In this document: positions 3,001 to 61,500 of the stretch, piece by piece | Position numbering within the stretch: position 1 is the first letter of the stretch | Layout: each line of letters opens with the position of its first letter | Source: Isoetes taiwanensis | Lineage: Eukaryota; Streptophyta; Lycopodiopsida; Isoetales; Isoetaceae | DNA: 64,000 nucleotides | Assembly (NCBI GenBank): GCA_021234155.1 | Contig: JAJEKV010000020.1 | Coordinates: forward strand, 2,157,275 to 2,221,274 | Direction of reading: 5' to 3' | Notes under the pieces: model-generated | Told to the model about the DNA's origin: nothing | The model's input: only the letters and a program-made list of their open reading frames with translations | Databases searched by the model: none | Made by a program: the position numbers and the translations under genes

Positions 3001-3785
3001 CCGTGCTCTGGTATCAAAGACAGCAGCTGCGTAGTTAATCTCAAAGAAGATTCCACGCTGCAAAACTCAAATACTTTGGGTGAAATATTAAACAATGAAA
3101 TCCACAACTTTGTGCTATTATGTACCTCCATTGCAGTCTTCACCATTGAAGACTTTATCCGGAAAGGTAGTTTCTGACTGAAGTCAAATGAAACAATATC
3201 CACCTATATAATCAAGTACAGCAGGATGAGAAATCGACCATTTATCCGTGAAGTAACAATGCCAAGTTTAAGGCTAAGACATGATGTAAAATTTTCAGAT
3301 CAAACGCAATAGCCAATATGGGGAGCTCAAAGAAAGTAATTTGAATAAGACTCTAGATCAAATTTCCCTACCTCCATGTCATTGCATGCCTGAATGAACA
3401 ATTTTTGGTTTGTGGGCTGTACAGCGATGAGATCGTAAGTCTGAAGCACAGGATTTGCAGAATTCAATGCGCTTGCCTGCACAGCATCTTCTACCACAAC
3501 TGTCATCCTACTATATTGCCTAAATGGCACGCCTATGGGCACTCCTAAGACCTCCCTATGAAACCTTGCAGAATCAGCCATTGCAGGAGTTGCTGCTAGC
3601 AGGTCCTTCAAAGCTAGAGGTTGTATCCTGCATCTATCGGAGTCTGCCATTATTCTCGTAACCATGTGACTTACTGCAATGCTCACATAGCCTAATTCCA
3701 TGGCCCCAGACACAATTTCTCTCTTGCACTGCTCCTGCAAACCTTCTAAGTTGAGATTTAAATCGTAAAACATGGCGCCCGGCAT
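79..3785 (-). CDS. RPP30: Ribonuclease P/MRP protein subunit RPP30, 5 exons
   Basis: Protein subunit of RNase P and RNase MRP, nuclear enzymes for tRNA 5' processing and pre-rRNA processing. Exons on the minus strand: 3785-3372, 3203-3126, 3057-2977, 734-580, 508-79. All introns are GT-AG and phases match, giving about 385 codons. Family signatures are clear: FYDLNL near the N-terminus, GVPFRQYSRMTVVV, NPVLQTYDLIAVQP, DFSQKLPFR, a TRGKNIIVSSGA stretch and ELRGPNDVANMSTLFGLS. These follow the order of the known PHP-like fold of RPP30. The C-terminal exon adds a long acidic/polar tail ending in a basic KKRKR cluster that looks like a nuclear localisation signal. The first ATG at 3785 gives MPGAMFYDL; the ATG four codons later (3773) is the alternative, since relatives begin close to the FxDLN motif. 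Intron 3 (735-2976) is swollen by Copia sequence. No frame defects were seen, so the gene looks functional. Confidence 0.93.
1240..2365 (-). mobile_element. Copia retrotransposon 5' part: PBS and gag remnant
   Basis: Inside RPP30 intron 3, in the same orientation as the gene. Reading the minus strand, positions 2365-2354 give a GGTATCAGAGC primer-binding site, the sequence complementary to initiator tRNA-Met used by plant Copia elements. Further down, 1607-1392 encodes a gag-like segment, and near 1370-1330 there is a CCHC zinc knuckle (CWHCGKKGHFKKD) in a shifted frame. Stops and frameshifts show that it is dead. Integrase and RT are absent on this strand. Confidence 0.75.
2366..2566 (-). 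repeat. Copia LTR, about 201 bp
   Basis: On the minus strand this block begins TGTTAGGAATATTC and ends ACTATCA directly before the primer-binding site at 2365-2354. That is the expected TG...CA ends plus PBS layout of a Copia 5' LTR. A partner LTR was not found in the window, so the element is truncated. Confidence 0.65.
2570..2900 (+). mobile_element. Copia RNase H fragment, opposite strand
   Basis: The plus strand encodes the Copia RNase H tail in pieces: a TTEAE-like stretch near 2625, then AIYCDNSGAIAHAKG near 2710-2755, and FVKEQLENGYLSLSYCST plus HQIADGFMKPF towards 2890, with one frameshift around 2775. It lies head to head with the gag/PBS fragment on the other strand, so either two insertions or an inversion occurred in this intron. 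Confidence 0.8.
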
Positions 3786-3791
3786 CGCTAT

Positions 3792-3819
3792 AAACCCTAG
3801 AAATTCTTCTTAAACCCTA
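3792..3819 (+). promoter_or_regulatory. Two telo-box motifs upstream of RPP30
   Basis: AAACCCTA occurs at 3792-3799 and 3812-3819, 7 and 27 bp upstream of the RPP30 start. Telo-boxes of this sequence are known in promoters and 5' leaders of plant ribosome-biogenesis and translation genes, which fits an RNase P/MRP subunit. A TATTATATA element on the minus strand (about 3844-3836) is a candidate TATA box. Confidence 0.6.
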
Positions 3820-19320: not shown

Positions 19321-19915
19321 TGTTTATTAGGTTGCCGCCACCAAACCCTTAACAGCTTGATGATCCTCAAGTAAAGAGAAATTCTTCAACGTCGTGACTC
19401 ACGCTTGCAGATTCAATAGCAACAGATGAAATCGCAGGCATCATGCATGCAAATAATAGCATCACAATCAAACCAAGGACTGCAGCCATCTGGATGCAAA
19501 CCGACCATAAGCCAGTATTCATAAGTATCATCGATCCCACATACGAAACACTTCAATATCCACTATTCTTTCCACATGGAACTCCAGGCTGGCCCCATAT
19601 AACGAATATCGCATGTCGCAAATAGATTGGTACCGAACAAGATTATTGCACAAACCTCGTTTCTTGCTATTAGGTAGACTTTGCAATGAGTACCTTGTGG
19701 ACATGTACTCAAGAGTCGAGGAAGAACGCTATAATTACATTGCAACAGAAGGATATAGACATAACCTAACACAACAGGAAGAAGATTTCATTGATGATGA
19801 AGACGATGAAACACGCCGTGAAGTACTACCTGCTTCTTTTCTAGGATGTAAATGATGGTGCACCGTACAAATAGCTAATGCCCTCGCACTCGCCAGAGCA
19901 AAAGGAAAACCAACA

Positions 19916-20134
19916 TTGTTCATAACAATGACGACAAATCCAGCATGGCCAGAAATAAAATCAAAACTAGCACCTGGACAAAATGCATCAGATATACCAA
20001 TCATCGTCGTACGCGCATGCCATGAGCGAGTTCAATATACTAAGTCTATCATTCGTAGATTCTTAGGTCCAATATCTTATATGATGCATGTCATCGAGTT
20101 CCAAAAGTGCGGCCTCCCACAGGACATATTGTAG
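19916..20134 (+). pseudogene. Helitron Rep domain fragment
   Basis: Seventy-two codons carrying the HUH-Rep region of Helitrons: TMTTNPAWPEI, APGQNASDIP and a VIEFQKCGLPQ where intact copies continue with the two-histidine motif. The frame breaks exactly there and resumes at 20107 in another frame (PTGHIVVKLEYD), so the catalytic HUH motif is split by an indel. Confidence 0.8.
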
Positions 20135-21377
20135 TCAAGCTTGAATACGACATTCCAGTTAACATGATCGATCAACTTATTTCTGCAGAATTACCAACAG
20201 ATCCAGTGCTTCGAGCAAAGATCGAAAAGTATATGATCCATAGACACACAACACGATGTCTAAAAGATAATAACAAATGTTGTTATCAATATCTGAAACC
20301 AATAAACCCAACAACATACATTGATGAAAAGGGCTACGTTCAATATAGAAGACGAACAGGAGCAGACGTTAACATCGTCCCATACATTCCATTCTTGCTA
20401 CAAGAAATGGATTGCCATGTATACGCAGACGTTGCATCAACAATCCACATATTTGCATATCTCTATGGATATATCTATAAGGGCTTTGATACGACTCGCT
20501 TTCACATTGACAATAATACATCGTCTACTTTAACAACACAACATACATCTACTGACATACCTCAACCCACAGATCAAAATCACAAAAGCCAATCTCATCA
20601 AACAACCGAAATCCAGGATTACATCTCCGCACGCTATTTATCATCCCAGCTGGATGGAGAATTTTGTCGTATCACATGACTGAAAAACATCCATTAGTGA
20701 AATGCCTTCCCCTACATCTCAGAGGGCAAAATATACCACAATTCGAAAAGTTGTCTACAACAAACACTGGAATCTCCACACTGGATAGGTACTTTTTACG
20801 TCCACTTACCTCCGCGTTTGACACCATGACTTATATTGATTACATTCACTGCCTATAAATCAAACACCATATTACAACCATTTGATTACCTTGAGCAAGA
20901 ATTTCCAGGTGCAACACGCAATGGCGTACATAAACGATCAAGGGGCCAATTGATTTGTAGAATTCGGGTACTGCTTCTGAAACTTGGAGAACCATTCTAT
21001 CTACGAACCATTCTATTGCACAAAGAAGCACGATCTTGGGATGATCTAAAAACACATGATGGCCAGCAGTACACAACCTATCAAGAAACTGCTCAAGCTA
21101 TGGGCCTCATTGCACCAGCAACAGAAGCAATTAAGACAATGGAAGAGGCAATATTGTGTCTACAAACTCCATCCCAACTTCGATTCCTCTTTACACTCTT
21201 GATACTCGACGGCGGCCCAGCTTTGGAATTATGGCAAACATTCCAACAACAAATGATAGCTGACTTCCTTGATCAGTACCATGCAGATCAATCCATTGCA
21301 AGCAACGAAGCTCTCCTTGCTATCAACAACTTTCTATTGCAACATGCAACCAACACCGCAACATTCGGCTTGCCCAT

Positions 21378-22039
21378 TTGCAGCATACCATGCAAAGAAG
21401 TCCAAAACGAACACGCAAAGTTCCCACATCATCACGAGTACTCTACCAAAGCCTCATCATGCTACAAAGCATGAAAACAAACCAAACACAAGTCTACAAC
21501 CATATGCAATACCTACTTCATAATAACCATCAACCTAGACCATTATTCATTTATGGTAAGGCAGGCACTGGAAAGACATACGTGCTCGATGCCTTTTCCC
21601 TTCACATACGAGGATTAGGCCAAATAATTCTTCCATGTGCAACAACAGCACTAGCATCATTACTATACACTGGTGGGCGAACTGCACACTCTCTCTTTCA
21701 CTTCTTGACTTACATTCTCCAAGAGCATTGCTAATTAAAGAAGCAACAGCTATTATATGGGACGAATTCCCTATGGCAAATAGAGTTGTCATAGAGGCAG
21801 TAGACATACTTCTTCAAAAAATAATGAACCTATCTTTACCCTTTGGAGGCAAATTATTCATTGCAGCCGGAGACTTTAGACAAATTGCTCCCATCGTTAA
21901 ACAAGCAGGGAAGACCGCAACAATAAATGCATCCATTAGATTTTCTCCTCTATGGAATCATTTTGATGTCTTACATCTTAATGAACCTATAAGAAATGCA
22001 ACTGATAAAGCTCATAGATTTTGTCGACGCTGTTGGTGA
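21378..22039 (+). pseudogene. Helitron PIF1-like helicase fragment
   Basis: Two overlapping frames (21378-21734, 21635-22039) hold the helicase core. Walker A GKAGTGKT is intact; the next motif GGRTAHSLF follows, then a frameshift, then AIIWDEFPMANR and GDFRQIAPIV. It matches the PIF1 helicase half of plant Helitrons. Confidence 0.85.
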
Positions 22040-22589
22040 AGGCGACTTACTTCAAAACATTCCACTAACATTATTCAAAACAACTATTGATATCAACGAT
22101 GCTATCAATTTCCTCTATAACAAATACATACTTAGCAACCCTGACCTTTGTAAAGAAAGAGCTTTTTTATCCCCAAAGAACATCACTGTTGATGCATTCA
22201 ACAACTTGATTCTACAAATATTACCTGGACTTTTAAAAATTTACTTTAGTGTCGACAGACTTACAGAGAATTACCAAACCATAGAAGACCATCCAATGGC
22301 AACAATAGACTTTCTTAACGGCTATAAACACCCGGCGCTCCCCCAACATGAACTTCAACTAAAGCCCAACACAATATGTCATCTAACAAAAACACTAGAC
22401 AGAGAGAGAGGCATAAATTTCTTAGTTTCTTCTTCGTTGATACTTGCATTTCTATGGGACTTGTTTGATAGGACCTTGGCGACCTTTACTGCAAGAATTT
22501 GCCAGCTGATCCTTAGTCTGAGGGTCTGTTGGCTGATTTATTATCATTTGGTGCAGATTTTTACTTATCTTTGGTTTTAAGGGATCTCT

Positions 22590-26819: not shown

Positions 26820-29800
26820 TCAATGCAGCAATCCACTTAAGCCCATTCTTCTAACCGTACGCTGCAAAAGAGCTGGAGGCCGACTCAAGCAGATGCTCAT
26901 GCTGAACTCTTCTGCAAGCTCAATCACAGACCTCTTGTCTAATCCAAGCCAAGCCATTGAAATATAATATCCCAGCCAAGACTGATATGCTTTCTCAAGT
27001 GTCATGAACTTCATTTCTTTTAAGGCATCCTTCACCTGCACAACCATACCCCATGTTTAAATTTAAGTTTGTTCTAGAGATTTATATGAGCATGAATCTG
27101 CGACCTAACAAGTTTAGGCATTCCAGAAATTATAGGGCAAAAATAGGTCTATATATTACACTACGTATAAATTCCGTAATTGTTTGCCTCTAGTAGATCT
27201 CAAATTGTTTAGGACAGACAAGACGATGTACAAATTCATATGATCTAAGCTGAAATTCAATGCATTAGCCAAGGACCCACTGCAGGCCCACCTAATCTTC
27301 TGGTAGCTCTTTCAGTTCAGTAGGAGGAGCATTGCCACCTCCATTAGATCCAGTAGCAGTAGAAAAAGAAACCCCACACCCAAAACAATGGGATGCCTTT
27401 AAGGGTGCTGGTTTGGAATTGTTAAATACATGGTTAAGTATAACACAGCTACATGCTGAGGGCACCCAATTGGTTGAGCTCTTTTAGTGGAGAAGATATT
27501 TGCAACTAAGTTAGATGCTGGCAAACAGGGTTTTTGCACTAACCAGCAAAAATGCCGCCCTTCATCTATACTAATCGGATTTTTGAGAAAAACACCCCTA
27601 ATTTGCCGGATTTTACACTAATTTTATAAAATTTCGACCGGAAATTTGCCTGCATCTACTTTATCAAATCGGATATTTCTAACTTTAATCGGAAATTCTG
27701 GGGAGGAACCCCCCTAATTTCGACCCTTGCTGGCAAGTCCCAGTCCAATATATGTATATAAAACAACATCCACAAATCAGATTGAGGGACAATACCTGTT
27801 CTTGCGGAGGATAATTTGGAGGAGATATCGTTTTAATAGGCACCCCTATCAGCTTACAAATAAAGGGCTCCTCAAATGGAAGTAACAATAAAATACTATT
27901 TACTCTCTTGCCTATGCTGCTGGTTAAACCCACGCGTTGAATATAGTGTTCTTTGCTAGGTGGCAGGCCAACCTACAAAAGCGGGAACTTTATACAAGTA
28001 AAAATGCACAAATTCCGATAACAGGAGAACAATACCTGCAGAATAAAAGTGGCATTCAAATACACTAATTCCCGTACAGATATGTTGGATACAAACAGAA
28101 CGCATCCAATCTTTGATTTACAGAAGTCATCAAAGATCTCTCTGCGATAGCTGGGCATTCTATGGTAATGAACCTCCATGATAATGAATCCCAAAGATTT
28201 ATATAAAGCTGCCAAGAACTCTGTGATACCAGAGCTTATACAGAATACAATAATCTACATACAGATGAAAAACGAACTTCAATAGTGAGCTTAATTCATG
28301 TTGCAATAGTTAGGCAGATTATCATAGATGATGCCTGATATTTTTATTTGCCATGCTAACTAGTGAACAAGATGAATGTATGTCAGGAAATAGGAGTTAA
28401 AATATTTATACCTTATGGTCGGGTTGATGCTGCCTAAGAATTGAGTAGATAGCTAATAGCTGCTCCTCTTGTGGAACAATAACAACCTGTCCAACACTTT
28501 CCTGCAGACGACAAACGTCTTTTATGTTACACCTAACACACAAAAAAATAGCGGTGTTTTCCTTGCAGTAAGTTGCTATAAAATGACTGCTCAGAATATT
28601 TATACCAGCAGGGATGGTTCATTATATGTGCTCAGAGCATTAAGCACGAAGTGACCGGGTTTCAGCACAGCTCTTGCTATGTTGTTCACCTGCACAAACG
28701 GAAAAGGAAGATGAGCAAAGAGCAATCATCTGATCATGGACGGATGAAAATGTTATATTTGTCGCATCGTTTAGACCTTTGTATTATAAACAGCTCAAAT
28801 ATTATAAGCATAAAGTACAAATGCTGCAGCTACTACAAGGTAAGACCTCACCTCCTCTGATTTCCTCGAGGAAAGTATAATATTCTGCCGTGCACCAGGC
28901 AGCATCTCAAGCATATGAAGAATGTTGTTTTGAGATACTACATCAAGCATTTCGCTTATTTCATCAAGAACTAGAAGCTTCAAGCTTTGAAGCTGACCCA
29001 CGAATCCTGAGGTCGTCTCAATGTGATTCACTAAGCTAGTTGGGGAAGCAATTAGAATCTGTAATCACAACACCAATAAGTTACGAAAAGTAACAAAGAG
29101 CACTGAAGTAGTACATCCATTGTGCGACAAGACTCCTTTTCTGAAATAAAAAATTTCTATTAACATTTGTCCGAGAAGTTTCAGCACATGTTTGTAAAAA
29201 CGCCCAGTATGCCACAGAATATTCATATGCACATTTGCTTCTCTTTACAAAAGAATGGATCCTCTTAAAGTAAGCCTGCATCTCAAGCCAATTAATTTCG
29301 GGTATATAACTTACAATTCCATCATGCCATGCAGCTACCAATCTCCTTCTTCTTAGCTATAAATAAGCACCAAAAGATAAGATGCACTTGATCCTCACAC
29401 TTATCACCAAGTGTCCTTTCACCCTTTTGTGAATGTCTCTCTTATAAGTCTAGGAGAGGGTTTTCCTCGGTCTCACAAGATCCATCAACGATAAAAACAC
29501 AAACCTGCCAGATGTGAGGTGGGCAGACTGTAAGAAATTCACCTGCCACCCTATAAGTTGCATCCTACGGTGTCTATACATAAACTATGGCTTGTGGAGG
29601 TTAATTACAACTGCATTGATTACAGGCTGCTACATAATAGTGGACTAAAATACGTTAGTGCTCTTCTCTTCTTCGTATGCAGATTTTGCCATCAGCAAGA
29701 GTGAATGTTATTACGTTAGAAACAAACAGTAACCAGTCGTAAGATGTGTCATCTCTCACCATCAATCAACTAATCCTTGTGATGTCCCTTACTCTATGCA

Positions 29801-32318
29801 GAGCCCTAACAAAATCTGCAGCCAACGAAGGTTCAATCTGCTTGAATTATCAACTCCATCCCATATTAAAACTGCAGTAAAGGTTCCCAATTCAAGCAAT
29901 AGCAGCAAATGTGGACTTCAGAATATCAATCTCTAACAGATTGAGCACCTGGTGCAACTATTGTTTCTTCACCCTTGGTAGGTTGAAAGCTTTAAAGACA
30001 CAACTACAATAAGCTTGCTGGCCTTCTCAATTAAGACAATTGTGTTAGTGTCCCTTCTACTCCCCAGAAATCATTAGTTTGCTTGCTAGAGTGTACAACT
30101 TATCCTCCGCAAGAGATCATTTACAAAATATGACCAGAATTAGACCACATTATAATATTAAAACAAGAATCAGTTGTTCTTGTACATTTATGACCTTAAT
30201 TACCGCATTGAATAGCTTCTTAGTTTCTTATTGTTTTTTATATGCACAAGCATCCCCTGGTACAATAAACAAAGAATGCTCAATACCTGGCATGGCAGAG
30301 TCTGTATGCGTTTCGCCTCTGCCTGCACATTAATGCCACCCATTAGAATTTGCACTCCGATATCCTTTAGAAACCTGATCAAGCTGATCACACTCTTCTG
30401 AGCTTTCAAAATGTCATGCCGTGTTGGGCATAAAATCAATATAGATATGTTATTGAAGCGCGCCAACTTTTTCTCACATGTAGTCACAGCTAGAGTCTTT
30501 TGTATTGCTGGTACCTGAAAGAATGGACGTGATTGATTACATAAATCTTCCAGCACTAAAGCCTAAGGTTTACCTCCAACACAAGACAAACAGAACATGA
30601 AAAGAAAAATCCATACGAGAATACAGAGTGTCCTATTCAATAACTGGTCCTAGAAACTTTCACACAGGTATAACTAGGATGTCAAAGATGAATTCTTACA
30701 AGTACAGCTATACTTCTTCCAGAACCAGGCCTAGCTACTGCTAACAAATCCCTACCTGCATACAGAAAAATGTTTACAAAATTCTACATCAAATGCCATT
30801 GCAAAAGAATTGCACTAATGCCTTAATAGCCATTTATTCATCATTATACACATCATAATATCAACACCAAGCATGCGTCGTATCCTAAGTTTACACTGGT
30901 TGCACTATGCGCATTACAATATGGACGCCTTAAGCTTAGAAATGATTGTGCAAACCACATATCTATGTATGTACTCACTGCCTTACATCAGTATATTTTG
31001 TTCCCATTCTTCAAAAATTGAGCTTATATGACAAGTTGCATATGGGTTCCTGTTTATATCTTTTATTAGAAAATATGAAGAAAGGTAAATGGAAGCAGGA
31101 CCCGTAGAGAAATATTAGTATTGCATGCTAGTGTGTCTTATAGACTAGTTATGAATAGAGACATAACCCAGAGAACAATGTAGATGCTGTGTGTCCATCT
31201 CAAATACCGTTAAAAATGCTCTCTTTTTCCTTGCATTCCTAACCGCCTGAATTTCCTCCCTGATTAGCACGTGCATTATGTTGGCTTTATCACTCAATCT
31301 CTAAAGGCTATCATAGGGCATTTACAAAATAACACTATTAAAAGCTTAACATGAAGATCCCTTAACTTCTGATTCACACGGTCAAAAACTACCTCCCCAA
31401 CATTGTGATCTACATGGAAAAAGGTAAATCATACTGGACATGCTTGAAAAGCTCTTACCTAAAGATCAAGTGTTGGTCACACCTCCTTAAATCTCATAAA
31501 GGTCCAGGGTAGTGGAGGGTTGACCTTCAAGGATAACAGGCACAATCGCTTCTTGATCTGAGCTCATCAATTTTAAACCTCTTTCCTCACGCACTGCCTG
31601 AACAAGTAATGGACTCAGCTTGAGCGAATTAAATCTGCATCTTCAAGGAGGACATTTAAATTTTACGGGCTGATGAAACATAATCAAAATGTGACACTTT
31701 AACAGAAATCATATCATATCCGCTAATCAATTATCAAATGGATTACCTCATGGGAAAAACGTCGCCAACATTGTCCCCTCTTGTCAGCAAATTGGAATTT
31801 TGTAACCTCGCAGCTTTATCGGGTTCCACAAGAACATCACTGTTGGATTCAGAATTAACCTCGTCCCTATCCGTGTGCAACTCAGCTGTTGGCAAAACCT
31901 GCTTCTCCAGATCAAGAGGCGGGGATCTACCTTTTCGGTGATAAAATCTAGCACTATGAATGCTGTCTTTAGGAAGAAAACGAGCAGAAGGTTGCCCGTC
32001 TTCCTTGTTGAAAAGAAATGGTCCATCCTTCTCACACCACAAATCCTCTGCAGATCTTCTTCGAAACCTATCTGCCATATCTCTGAGCTGAGGATTCAAG
32101 TAATCAAAGGGGTAGAAACCTTGAGAATCTGCCATTCTCCGACGTTCTTCAAAAATTTGACGCTCTCTCAGAATCTTAGCTTTCTGAAATTGTAAGCGTT
32201 TTTCCCGTTGCATTCGACGCCATTCCCATTTATTTACACCACCGGGATAAGTACGAGGGCCGCCTCCCATCATTCTGAGTCTGCTGCTAGGGAAACCATA
32301 GCATGTTGTCAGCCCCAT
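26820..32318 (-). CDS. DEAD-box helicase-family protein, RH33/RH48-like, catalytic motifs altered
   Basis: Ten exons on the minus strand: 32318-31747, 31634-31525, 30755-30700, 30514-30287, 29058-28852, 28689-28606, 28501-28412, 28254-28036, 27972-27796, 27035-26820. All introns are GT-AG, all phases agree, no stop: 652 residues. The N-terminus (GGGPRTYPGG, NKWEWRRMQREKR) and C-terminal extension (KAYQSWLGYY, MGLSGL) are typical of the plant RH25/26/31/33/48 group. The two RecA-like halves align throughout, but motif I reads GSGRS (238-242) instead of GxGKT, Ia PTRHD, Ib SPTS for TPGR, II DEIS (354-357) for DEAD, III SSR for SAT, V SVREL for SARGx, VI QRVGLTSS (534-541) for HRxGRTGR. The Q-motif Gln (218) is kept. 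ATP hydrolysis therefore looks unlikely. It may act as a non-catalytic RNA-binding or partner protein. Confidence 0.9.
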
Positions 32319-32391
32319 TCTGGCTATGGCGAGCCTGTTTGGGTTTTAGTTTTATCGCTCATTGCCTTATCCTTCTCCTCTATCATGGTCT

Positions 32392-57386: not shown

Positions 57387-60300
57387 GAAGGAGCTGAGGT
57401 TAATATTGATCCTATTACTCTGAAAGTATGCAACCAGCACACAAATTATCAGCAGCAACCGCTCACTAACAGGCCAGGTTGGTATAATGAGCTTGGTAAC
57501 TTTGGATATGCAGCAGCTGGTATTACTGCTCCTAACAAGGCAGTACAAACTATGCTTGGATGCATTATGATTAAGGAATTGCACAAGATTTTCATCAGTA
57601 AAGAATGTGGCCTTGCTGAAGGAGATATTTCTGCCATACTTTTTCTTGGGTTTGATAGGATACTGAATCTAGTATGCAGCTTTAAATCCAAAGACTATGA
57701 GCAGTGCAAAGCCCTTATTGAGCAAGCCTATCTTAGCCTTCCTGCTGCTCATATCCTTGCTGATACAAATGATGTATTTGATCTTATGGCATTTATCAAA
57801 GGCCTTACTGTGTTGGAAGCCACAAATTCTCTGAAAATATCATATCCACCTAATGACTCTGAAGTTGTTACAGCTGACAAACCTGATAGTCCACCTCAGT
57901 TATTGGACAATTGTCTTTTTGACATAAACATGATTGCTGATCTAGAACAGGTCCAGGCAGCAGTAGCAGTGGATAATCAGCAGCCACAAACTGAAGAGGA
58001 CAAAATCAAGACTGCATTGCTCAGGTATAATATCAAGGAATTAAACCTTTTCAATTGTGGCCCTTTCCCTATCATGTCTAACAGAAATGTTGAGATACAT
58101 GGAGAGCAGTTCCAGCACACACTCTGGAACAGCAGAAACCTTGGTGTGATTGCTCCCATTGGTAAGGAATCTCTTATTATGCTGGCTAGATTACAGAAAG
58201 ATGAAGTGCAAAAGGCAGAAAGCAATGCATTGGCCTTCAACAAATCCTTCAAGAGAATTGAATGTAAGTTCCCTTTTAAGTTGGATTTCCTGGGTAGAAC
58301 TTGTGAACTGGGCAATGGACTCTTTGTTGGACAAAAGGGACACATGGCAAAAATTGAAGAAAAAAGAATTGACTTTTACTTGAAAAAGATTTGGCGAACA
58401 TATTGTCCGTTTGTGAAGTGCAACTGTGATAAAATGTCTGACAAAAAATGCCCTGATAATATCACATGGATAGATCATCTGTTGTGGCATATGCTCAACA
58501 ACCTAGAGAAGATTTGGCCTAATGATAATATATGCATGAGGTTTGCAAGATTCTCCTCTTTTTTGGCATCTGACCCTATGAAGACTGTTATTCTGGCCTA
58601 TATTGGATATTTATCCATTAGGGAGATTATGATTGCCATGACACACAGGTTTGCTGCTGACAAGAATTGTGACTTCAAGAGTGAATTTGGAAACTACAAG
58701 GTTGTCGACATCATTGAGAAAACAATCAAGCCAATCTCTTTTCTTTATACGCATCAGTTTGACAATGCTAGTTTCGGTTATCAGAGCAGCAAGAAAAGAT
58801 CCCAGTCCAGTAACACCATGGCCAGTGGAATACTTAGGCCACCCAAACTGAATAGGAATTCTGCTACTTCAGCCAGATCTGAAAGTTCCTCGGTTACTAA
58901 GATCACTGATTATACTAGGACTCGTTCTAATCAGACCTCAGGTTCTGGGGTATGATACAACAGTGCATAAAAGAAGGTAAATTATTTAAAATATATATGT
59001 TTAAACTTTAGTTCTTTGGGCCACAGTGCCCTTACTCTCTGAAAACTTGAAAGGGTTTATCCCAACTAGTATTTCACTCTAACTGAAATTTCTTTCTGCT
59101 ATGTGCAGAGTAGGAGGGAACTTACCATCAGAGCAGATGGTAGGTGGAGACTGCATACCAAAAAAGTCAAGCAAAAAAATAAATATGTCCACTTTACATA
59201 TTTCTCCAAAGTTATAGATAGAATCAAGTTCAGCAGTATTTTCAAGACTGTCTTATGTAGCCATTTTGGTAATATTGGCTATGATATTTGGGACTCCACC
59301 ATCTTTGGATGGAGATACTCAGACAACCTTAAAGACATGTTTTACAAGCCAAAAATGATATTTGCTGAGGATAATTTGTATACGTGCCCATGTTGCATCC
59401 CTGGGCTTAAGAAATATATTGATCCTTCCATTGGTCATATTAGGACTACTGATTTAAGTATTGTTGTGCATAATAAAACTTTGAAGCACTGGTTTACACT
59501 TGGGTTGAATCACATACCTGACCTACCCTTTACCCTGGAAAGATTCAAAACAGAAATGGAGGATACCATAGAACAATTCTTTCTGATACACAAGTCTGCC
59601 TTGGAAGAAATGGATAGTAAAGCTATTGAGGATTGTAAAGCTATGCTTAAAAAAGAGACTAAGTGGCAAGCTAAGGCTTTTATCAAGGATAACTCGAGAA
59701 TCATGAAGAAATTTCTTATCCATGATGAAAAAGTTGTTAAAAATATTGAGTGGATTGTCAATAATCTTTATACTGCGGGCATATGCATGCTACACCCTGC
59801 CATTTTTGGAACCTGCCAAAGTACCTGCACTAGGTACTTTTGGATTGGGTACTATTTTCTTGTTCTTTTGGTCAAAACTAATTCAAAAGTTGAATATAAA
59901 ATGTCAAACGCATATCAATGTTCAAGGTTAAGATAGAGACAATACTATTGGAGGTCAAAATGAATGCATTCAATTTAACATTTGTAGTTATTAAGATATT
60001 ATAAAAGTACCCAGTACCCAGTGTTGGGTACTTTTTTAGGTAGTTTTATGGTTCCTAAATGGTACTTTTTTTGATAGGGTGTAGCATGCTTATGCCCCTG
60101 CAGCAGTTGACAAAGCTGCAAATAACCCTGCTTTCATTTGCCCTGTTCACATTAGGGAGGCTGCTACTAAAAGACTTGAGAGTAATGACTTTGCTAAAAT
60201 GGACATGATACAGGAAAACCTTGTCAACAATATTCTGGCTGACTTACAAGGGATACTTGGTGATGGACACTACTCCAGCATTAACATGCCATATCTGTTG

Positions 60301-61500
60301 GGGATTTTTAAAGCACATAAGTTGGAATACAGATGGATTACAAATGCACATGATACGATTTTCTCCACAGCAGCCTCCATACTTGCATCAGGATTGAATC
60401 TCATCATTGATCTATGGCCTGATATATGTTGGGAGAAATGCAAAGCAGCAAACTTGTTCATGTCTAATAAGATTAGGGCGTCATGGATAGTCAACTCCAT
60501 ATATGATGTTGTTTGCAATTTACCTTCTAAGATTTCTGATGTGTTTACAGCGGATATCACAAAGTGCTATGAAAATATCCCATTGGATGGCGAGGATGGT
60601 ATATGCAATGTGTTGCAACAGATTATCAATATGGCATGGAAATTTAAGAAAAAAGAACATGCTGGTTTTGACATGTGGTACCATGTCAATAATAATGGGA
60701 CTGCGGCAGTAACATGGAAATGCAAGGTCCCTGATGGGAACTATTGGACTAGGCTTGACAAAGACACGTTTACAAGATTGAACATTTGGCTCTTGAATAA
60801 TTGTTATCTTGTTATGTATAATGGTATCTGGAAACAAATCAAGGGGATTCCAATGGGTTTCGCTGCAAGCCCTGGATGGTGCAATATATACTTAGCCTGG
60901 TTTGAGCTTAAGTTTATAATGAAACTAATTGCACAAGGCAGATTACAGGAAGCTTCCATGTTTAGTAACACTTTCAGATATATGGATGACATTTTGGGAA
61001 TTAATAACCCATACATCAGGAAATACCTCGGCATTGAAAAAGATATGGAAGAATTAAAGATATACAATCTGGAACATCTTGGCATTAAAGATGAAACAAT
61101 CTATGATGCTAGTGACAATACCATGGGAAGAAAAATTGATTTCCTAAATATTAGTATTGAAGTGTTTGCACCCCATTCAGGCATTTATGCGCTGTACAGA
61201 TTTGACAAGAGATGCAAATTACCTTTTAAGGTATCAAAGTACATCCATGCAAGCAGTTGCAGACCATATTTGATGGCATGTAATGTCATCATTTCTCAAT
61301 TACAGCCATTTCTGTATGCACACAATAATCCCATTCGGGCAGCTAATGACATACTGGACCTTATGAACACATTCATAGGCAAAGGGTTCAGAAAGAAAGA
61401 CATCTGGCACAAAGTTACTAAAGTTTTGCATGAGCAAACGTTTCCAGGGTTGAGATATGATATGGGCATCCTTGTCTTTGAACTTAACAAATACAAATAA
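57387..61500 (+). CDS. Large reverse-transcriptase protein, intron-containing, split by a MITE
   Basis: Segment 1 (57387-58949, 521 codons) starts after an acceptor-like TTTTAG and ends at a GTATGA donor; the intron 58950-59108 has a GCAG acceptor. Segment 2 (59109-59790) joins in phase, then a 293-bp MITE interrupts; segment 3 is 60085-61500, about 1,220 codons in all. Landmarks: CPFVKCNCDKM (Cys-rich), TCPCC, GHIRTTDLSIVVHN, AVDKAANNPAFIC, catalytic block A FTADITKCYENIP, block B GIPMGFAASPGWCNIYLAWFE, block C FRYMDDIL, then LYRFDKRCKLPF. All three catalytic Asp are present. This pattern matches an RT family I remember from invertebrate, algal and protist genomes; I cannot name its clade. 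No endonuclease domain was seen. Without the MITE the flanking frames differ by one base. The true 5' end is unknown; the first ATG in the frame is 57552. Confidence 0.8.
58950..59108 (+). other. Intron in the reverse transcriptase gene
   Basis: GTATGA donor at 58950 and TATGTGCAG acceptor ending 59108; 159 bp, phase 0 on both sides. The upstream frame would stop at TGA just past the donor, while splicing restores the frame into SRRELTIRADG. A pyrimidine-rich stretch precedes the acceptor. Confidence 0.7.
59791..60083. mobile_element. 293-bp MITE inside the reverse transcriptase frame
   Basis: Ends TACACCCT...AGGGTGTA are inverted; GCATGC flanks both sides (59785-59790, 60084-60089), a probable 6-bp target duplication whose palindromic form leaves the exact border uncertain. 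Internal GGTACTTTT / AAAGTACC words recur near both ends. No coding capacity. Confidence 0.8.

Follow-up and report, generated by a model that had tools for sequence, protein, structure and literature searches.

A probable catalytically dead member of the RH33/RH48 DEAD-box helicase family in the lycophyte Isoetes taiwanensis

The window analysed here is a 64,000-nt stretch of the Isoetes taiwanensis genome (assembly GCA_021234155.1, contig JAJEKV010000020.1, positions 2,157,275 to 2,221,274). It carries, at 32318-26820 and wholly on the minus strand, a gene for a DEAD-box helicase-like protein with altered catalytic motifs, called here the pseudo-helicase; coordinates without a contig name follow the numbering of the window. 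The gene comprises ten exons and 652 codons plus a stop, with no internal stop codon, and all nine introns are of the GT-AG type with matching phases. An intact frame with matching splice phases had been described in the initial annotation, and re-joining the exons reproduced it without any frame or splice defect. When four canonical relatives were searched against the window with tblastn (E 0.01), their combined matches fell in seven exons out of ten (1, 2, 4, 5, 8, 9 and 10) and nowhere in the window outside the exons of this gene.

On sequence grounds, the pseudo-helicase is a member of the plant RH33/RH48 DEAD-box family. It matches the Pfam families DEAD (PF00270, E 3.4e-22) and Helicase_C (E 4.4e-08). 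Scoring in the homologue search covered the 7998 candidates with most words in common, and the best 120 of 630 were listed, so that plant members are under-sampled; among the matches listed, the closest are a Diphasiastrum complanatum protein (P0001, 41%), a JGI protein (P0002), a Marchantia protein (P0003) and four legume proteins (P0004-P0007). Canonical motifs are present in all seven of these RH33/RH48 members. Of the relatives with solved structures in the PDB, Has1/DDX18 is the best match by sequence (E about 1e-45), followed by vasa, Mss116 and others. Mss116 and Has1/DDX18 are canonical helicases.

Both ends of the protein retain the hallmarks of the family, as had been proposed. The N-terminal module (N-module; amino acids 15-123, bases 32276-31950, in exon 1) consists of the MGGGPRT.PGG signature and the basic helix which follows it, and it keeps 32 of the 39 residues that are invariant in P0002-P0007. 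The C-terminal WLGYY..PPAL..T..MGL domain keeps 20 of 29 such residues and all 18 of its hydrophobic sites. The two helicase domains keep far fewer: 49 of 94 in RecA1 and 34 of 74 in RecA2, and the linker keeps neither of its two. P0001 retains 25 of the same residues in the N-module, 85 in RecA1, 69 in RecA2 and 21 in the C-terminal domain. A homologue search with the N-module alone returned two proteins out of 14 candidates.

Catalytic DEAD-box proteins are recognised by GxGK[TS] in motif I, DEAD in motif II, SAT in motif III and HRxGRxGR in motif VI; in the pseudo-helicase these read PGSGRS, DEIS, SSR and QRVGLTSS. Motifs Ia (PTRHDI), Ib (SPTS) and V (SNISVRELV) are broken as well. Consensus patterns for motifs I, Ia, Ib, II, III and VI were written for this analysis, motif V being left without a pattern, and 160 of 167 fetched homologues were compared with them; six proteins consisting of the N-module without a core, and one fusion of 1393 amino acids, were left out. 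The patterns are matched by 159 (I), 159 (Ia), 154 (Ib), 159 (II), 160 (III) and 159 (VI) homologues. The pseudo-helicase fails all six, whereas no homologue among the 160 fails more than one. It also keeps only 38 of the 76 columns that are at least 90% conserved in the homologues, compared with 64-67 in the seven RH33/RH48 members and 57 in the lowest of the 160. The earlier claim that every catalytic motif has changed thus stands for the motifs. It does not extend to every residue, since Q218, the DE of motif II, the PTR of motif Ia, the first arginine of motif VI and two P-loop glycines remain. Lost together are the Walker A lysine (now arginine), both later arginines of motif VI, SAT (now SSR) and TPGR. 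Combined loss of the Walker A lysine and the later motif VI arginines is expected to abolish hydrolysis. Catalytic loss is a well-supported prediction.

The assembly containing the window (1,658,258,908 bases in 1110 contigs) also holds a canonical paralogue, the presence of which had been raised as a check. A genome search with P0001 located it on contig C908 (21710617-21714037). The C908 gene is open and has ten exons at matching places, although the exact end of exon 9 is not fixed. Its motifs are canonical throughout (TGTGKT, PARELA, TPGRLLDH, DEAD, SAT, SDVSARGID and HRVGRTGR). Exon 1 encodes a presequence-like start and a linker in place of the N-module, which was matched neither in the 3.3 kb upstream of the gene nor elsewhere on the contig in a genome search with exon 1 of the pseudo-helicase. 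A decayed copy of the C908 gene, with stops and frame breaks, is found at C1055:2221733-2222200.

In a tree of the helicase core (15 chosen rows), the pseudo-helicase, C908 and P0001 form a clade with support of 98/98, on branches of 1.69, 0.30 and 0.19 respectively. Topology tests accept the pseudo-helicase with C908 (p-AU, from the approximately unbiased test, 0.301), and earlier tests made without C908 gave p values of 0.071, 0.124 and 0.117. More than one branching order of the three is compatible with these values, so the duplication may precede or follow the split between Isoetes and Diphasiastrum. In one candidate origin, the pseudo-helicase would be orthologous, in lycophytes, to the angiosperm proteins which consist of the N-module alone, from a stage before the core was lost. 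A tree of the N-module by itself is compatible with this (p-AU 0.296). The idea was dropped because the core tree places the protein in the lycophyte clade and because a separate N-module-only stretch is present on contig C1038.

Sequence change in the pseudo-helicase is mostly local to the core. Relative-rate counts against P0001, taken where the outgroups P0002 and P0003 agree, give 117 v 7 for the core, 7 v 17 for the N-module and 5 v 2 for the C-terminal domain (Fisher p about 1e-11 for core against N-module). With C908 in the comparison, the core has 115 v 8 and the C-terminal domain 2 v 2. Maximum-likelihood branch lengths for the pseudo-helicase and P0001 are 1.52 v 0.15 for the core (18 rows chosen from 161) and 0.53 v 1.69 for the N-module (13 rows).

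The hydrophobic pattern of the core is kept. At 112 core sites all seven RH33/RH48 members are hydrophobic; the pseudo-helicase remains so at 105 of them, whereas neutral simulations purged of stops and run to the same identity retain 80.7 +/- 4.4, and none of 500 reaches 105. A neutral frame of this length has a 95% chance of being broken (intact P = 0.05) by K of about 0.009-0.016, assuming a kappa of 2 and indel/substitution ratios of 0.05-0.15 with three quarters of indels frame-shifting. Between the cores of the pseudo-helicase and C908, the NG86 method gives a rate of replacement substitution (dN) of 0.55 and of silent substitution (dS) of 2.57. The latter is saturated, so the dN/dS of about 0.2 is rough, and it averages over both branches; dS for the C-terminal domain could not be computed. 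The long-term ratio is nevertheless far from 1. The hydrophobic pattern, the concentration of change in the core and the survival of the frame at such a dS contradict plain decay after catalysis was lost. Long past constraint on the core pattern and on both ends is well supported by these comparisons, and the gene is not simply a young pseudogene, which had been set out as the alternative.

A helicase-like fold would fit the hydrophobic pattern and the Pfam profiles; the folded model itself is of the relative P0002. In the AlphaFold model of this canonical protein, confidence is high for the core, for the C-terminal domain and for a long helix (95-132) within the first part of the N-module; the best match of the model by fold among solved structures is Mss116. 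An AlphaFold2 prediction of exon 1 of the pseudo-helicase alone gives a resembling helix at 30-65. Its confidence (predicted local distance difference test) averages 93-97 over residues 31-60 and is lower elsewhere, and the predicted template modelling score is 0.28 overall.

Pieces of the gene occur elsewhere in the genome. The fullest is C89, a complete copy which is 98% identical (differences of 1.8% in exons and 2.4% in introns). It is defective: exons 1 and 4 carry deletions (2-base and 1-base), and codon 391 is a stop. The broken motifs are present in it as well, Ia and II having changed further. Since these motifs are shared, the dead core predates the C89 split. Smaller fragments look like gene pieces carried by mobile elements; no terminal inverted repeats were found. 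A segment with exons 1-2 lies within a repeated element of about 4.2 kb on four contigs. The copies on C963 and C996 are 99% identical to the window and keep the 190-codon exon-1 frame open; in those on C1030 (92%) and C1057 (91%) it is broken. For one family, the divergence among these copies is strikingly uneven. Most of exon 5 and its adjoining intron also recur on four contigs, and motif II reads DEIN in all four fragments. Past base 28862 these fragments are foreign sequence, and edge differences at 28868 and 28864 were not used. Taken with C89, these fragments point to xEIN as the earlier reading of motif II in the lineage, with DEIS arising later in the window copy.

Two papers describe RH33 (from preliminary data) and ZmRH48 as acting in mitochondrial group II intron splicing, with ZmRH48 binding PPR-SMR1, SPR2 and Zm-mCSF1 (PMC11122041, PMC10887915). 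The pseudo-helicase resembles the RH33/RH48 group in its N-module (MGGGPRTYPGG..), its RecA1-RecA2 arrangement, its C-terminal domain and its exon plan, which matches that of canonical C908. It differs in its six broken motif patterns and its long core branch (1.69 v 0.30 for C908). Utp25/DEF is a pseudohelicase of the small-subunit processome; it is reported as essential, and its authors propose it as the first fully validated DEAD-box pseudohelicase (PMC9539457). Validated examples seem to be few. Both proteins have a helicase-like core and vestigial motifs in a kept protein, and the motifs of the pseudo-helicase would be vestigial and non-functional in the sense used for Utp25. However, Utp25 belongs to another lineage: on the pseudo-helicase, the UTP25 profile of Pfam reaches E 0.4, which is below cut-off, against 3.4e-22 for PF00270. 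The pseudo-helicase is known here from sequence, and in contrast to Utp25 it has a catalytic twin of the same clade in its own genome. By sequence, Has1/DDX18 is its closest solved relative, and Mss116 is the best fold match of canonical P0002. No paper on a plant DEAD-box pseudohelicase was found in the one open library searched, where none of the three papers using the word was on plants by title; five papers came up there for DEAD-box pseudoenzymes, and Utp25 is one of their subjects.

The N-module also occurs without a motor. Six angiosperm proteins (P0039, P0073, P0081, P0082, P0091 and P0167) have N-modules 50-53% identical to that of the pseudo-helicase (five of the six compared). Unlike it, they lack the helicase core, all six falling below the inclusion threshold of the hidden Markov model. 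Some of them are labelled as helicases by their sources. In I. taiwanensis, contig C1038 (6124332-6124637, minus strand) has an open stretch of 251 codons that includes a full N-module, a candidate lycophyte counterpart of these proteins. A further N-module gene is present in two 97%-identical copies, of which that on C916 is open (235 codons) and that on C1045 is frame-broken. No match to the helicase core was found in the roughly 20 kb fetched at each of the three loci. These loci suggest that the module functions without a motor elsewhere too.

The explanation we favour, and hold to be probable though well short of certain, is that the gene encodes an ancient lycophyte RH33/RH48 pseudo-helicase, retained as an adaptor without catalytic function and probably engaged in RNA processing in an organelle. 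Such a protein would no longer run an ATPase cycle. It would keep the N-module, the hydrophobic pattern of two RecA domains and the C-terminal domain, and would act through these retained binding surfaces and the core fold as an adaptor or a competitor. Within a complex that processes organellar RNA, it would serve as an adaptor or scaffold and dock via the N-module and the C-terminal domain, and the C908 paralogue would supply ATP-driven remodelling. Weak binding of nucleotide or RNA may persist; we infer expression, localisation and the adaptor role. The initial proposal of an enzyme family member turned into a structural or regulatory protein is supported, with that role itself putative. 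The pair suggests the division of an old enzyme into two proteins, one non-catalytic and the other catalytic and lacking the N-module. In a stronger form of this idea, to which we give rather little credence, an ancestral organellar splicing helicase underwent reciprocal loss, and its two halves (N-module, C-terminal domain and dead core here, motor in C908) work in trans as a split helicase. The gene would then be a DEAD-box pseudoenzyme with a reciprocal split of N-module and motor between paralogues. This pattern is an unusually clear division of a multidomain enzyme after duplication, and with a canonical twin of matching exon plan in the same genome, the purpose of the dead core is directly testable by domain swaps.

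Several observations weigh against this explanation. The presequence-like start of C908 is longer than that of the pseudo-helicase, in which the 16 residues ahead of the N-module would be a short, putative targeting signal. Nor is the N-module confined to the pseudo-helicase: C1038 and C916/C1045 also carry it, and these genes weaken clean subfunctionalisation with C908. Homologue searches, limited by word sharing, found no pseudo-helicase orthologous to it in other species. In the N-module tree its branch of 0.53 is longer than those of two bryophyte-type rows (0.18 and 0.31), so that protection of its ends is nothing unusual. Further points concern recent time. The dN/dS against C89 is 0.5-1.1 depending on method. 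Of 22 replacement differences between the two copies, family residues assign ten to C89 and two to the window copy, the other ten being uninformative, and a reading of present selection was drawn from the ten of 12. It was dropped because C89 exceeds the window copy in changes of every class, silent and non-coding included, because codon 105 (one of the two window changes) is a C89 change when judged by the repeat-borne copies, and because neutrality would often have left the window copy open (P 0.23-0.43 since the C89 split). Polarised with the repeat-borne fragments (exons 1, 2 and 5), the window copy has three replacement and two silent changes, and C89 has 11 and 4 (Fisher p 0.61). Constraint is supported for the long history; since the C89 split, the data fit constraint and neutrality alike, which is the chief finding against a gene that is strongly guarded today. 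The initial claim that the intact frame argues for selection holds in this way for the long history and not for the most recent period, where luck may suffice.

Early decay is a rival account: a long-functional pseudo-helicase may have become dispensable in the window copy only recently and be open by luck. We regard this as the less credible account, though a serious one. The sister copy has already decayed, gene fragments are scattered in repeats, and three of the five polarised coding changes specific to the window are replacements (N357S, I362V and G363V), which lie with one silent change within 19 bases by motif II. Against it, 652 codons remain without a frame or splice defect, and exons 1-2 of the window copy have one silent change of their own and no polarisable replacement (at codon 80 each of the three lineages has its own reading, which is not polarisable). 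An account in which the N-module alone matters and the core is a passenger is improbable. It draws on the N-module being the best kept part of the protein and on N-module-only proteins existing in angiosperms and, as an open stretch, on C1038; the core hydrophobic pattern, the kept C-terminal domain and stop-free core exons speak against it. Least probable of all, and very much so, is a divergent yet active helicase or ATPase with non-standard motifs. The residues that survive in motifs I, Ia, II and VI, and Q218, would suit it, but the lysine, both arginines, SAT and TPGR are gone together in a way that no compared homologue approaches. The coordinates of the gene parts and of related segments are collected in Table 1.

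Table 1. Exons of the pseudo-helicase gene and segments of it that recur in repeats
Feature	Coordinates	Strand	Content
Exon 1	31747..32318	-	Short N-terminus, N-module, linker
Exon 2	31525..31634	-	RecA1 start, Q motif region; Q218 kept at 31555-31553
Exon 3	30700..30755	-	Motif I PGSGRS at 30729-30712 (canonical TGTGKT)
Exon 4	30287..30514	-	Motif Ia PTRHDI at 30427-30410 (canonical PTRELA)
Exon 5	28852..29058	-	Motif Ib SPTS 29046-29035, II DEIS 28965-28954, III SSR 28872-28864
Exon 6	28606..28689	-	Helicase core
Exon 7	28412..28501	-	Helicase core
Exon 8	28036..28254	-	Motif IV region, VFC kept; motif V SNISVRELV at 28089-28063
Exon 9	27796..27972	-	Motif VI QRVGLTSS 27939-27916 (canonical HRLGRTGR); C-terminal domain starts 27840
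Exon 10	26820..27035	-	C-terminal domain (WLGYY..PPALLQRT..MGL) and stop
Segment with exons 1-2	31047..32361	-	Also inside the ~4.2 kb repeated element on C963, C996, C1030, C1057
Copies of the ~4.2 kb repeat	L022 5036-9249 (C963); L023 5105-9284 (C996); L025 5007-9031 (C1030); L026 4911-9130 (C1057)		
Segment with most of exon 5 and adjoining intron	28862..29349	-	Also on C996, C1033, C1019 (18.9 Mb), C1089 (L061-L064)
Further N-module loci	L027 6124332-6124637 (C1038)	-	251-codon open stretch
Further N-module loci	L031 (C916); L029 (C1045)		Two 97%-identical copies
Decayed C908 copy	L044 2221733-2222200 (C1055)		

The window also contains an unusual feature at 57387-61500 on the plus strand, where three long frames of 522, 288 and 471 codons are found. 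The third has a YMDD motif and a weak match to RVT_1 (E 9.7e-05, below cut-off), and the first two matched no Pfam family; the whole is best described as a putative unusual reverse-transcriptase element. At 19511-22580 (plus strand) are frames which we take to resemble the remains of a Helitron-type helicase; the one frame tested, 20830-21474, has no Pfam match. An exon of a gene for the RNase P subunit p30 (PF01876, E 5.9e-13) lies at 3327-3809 on the minus strand.

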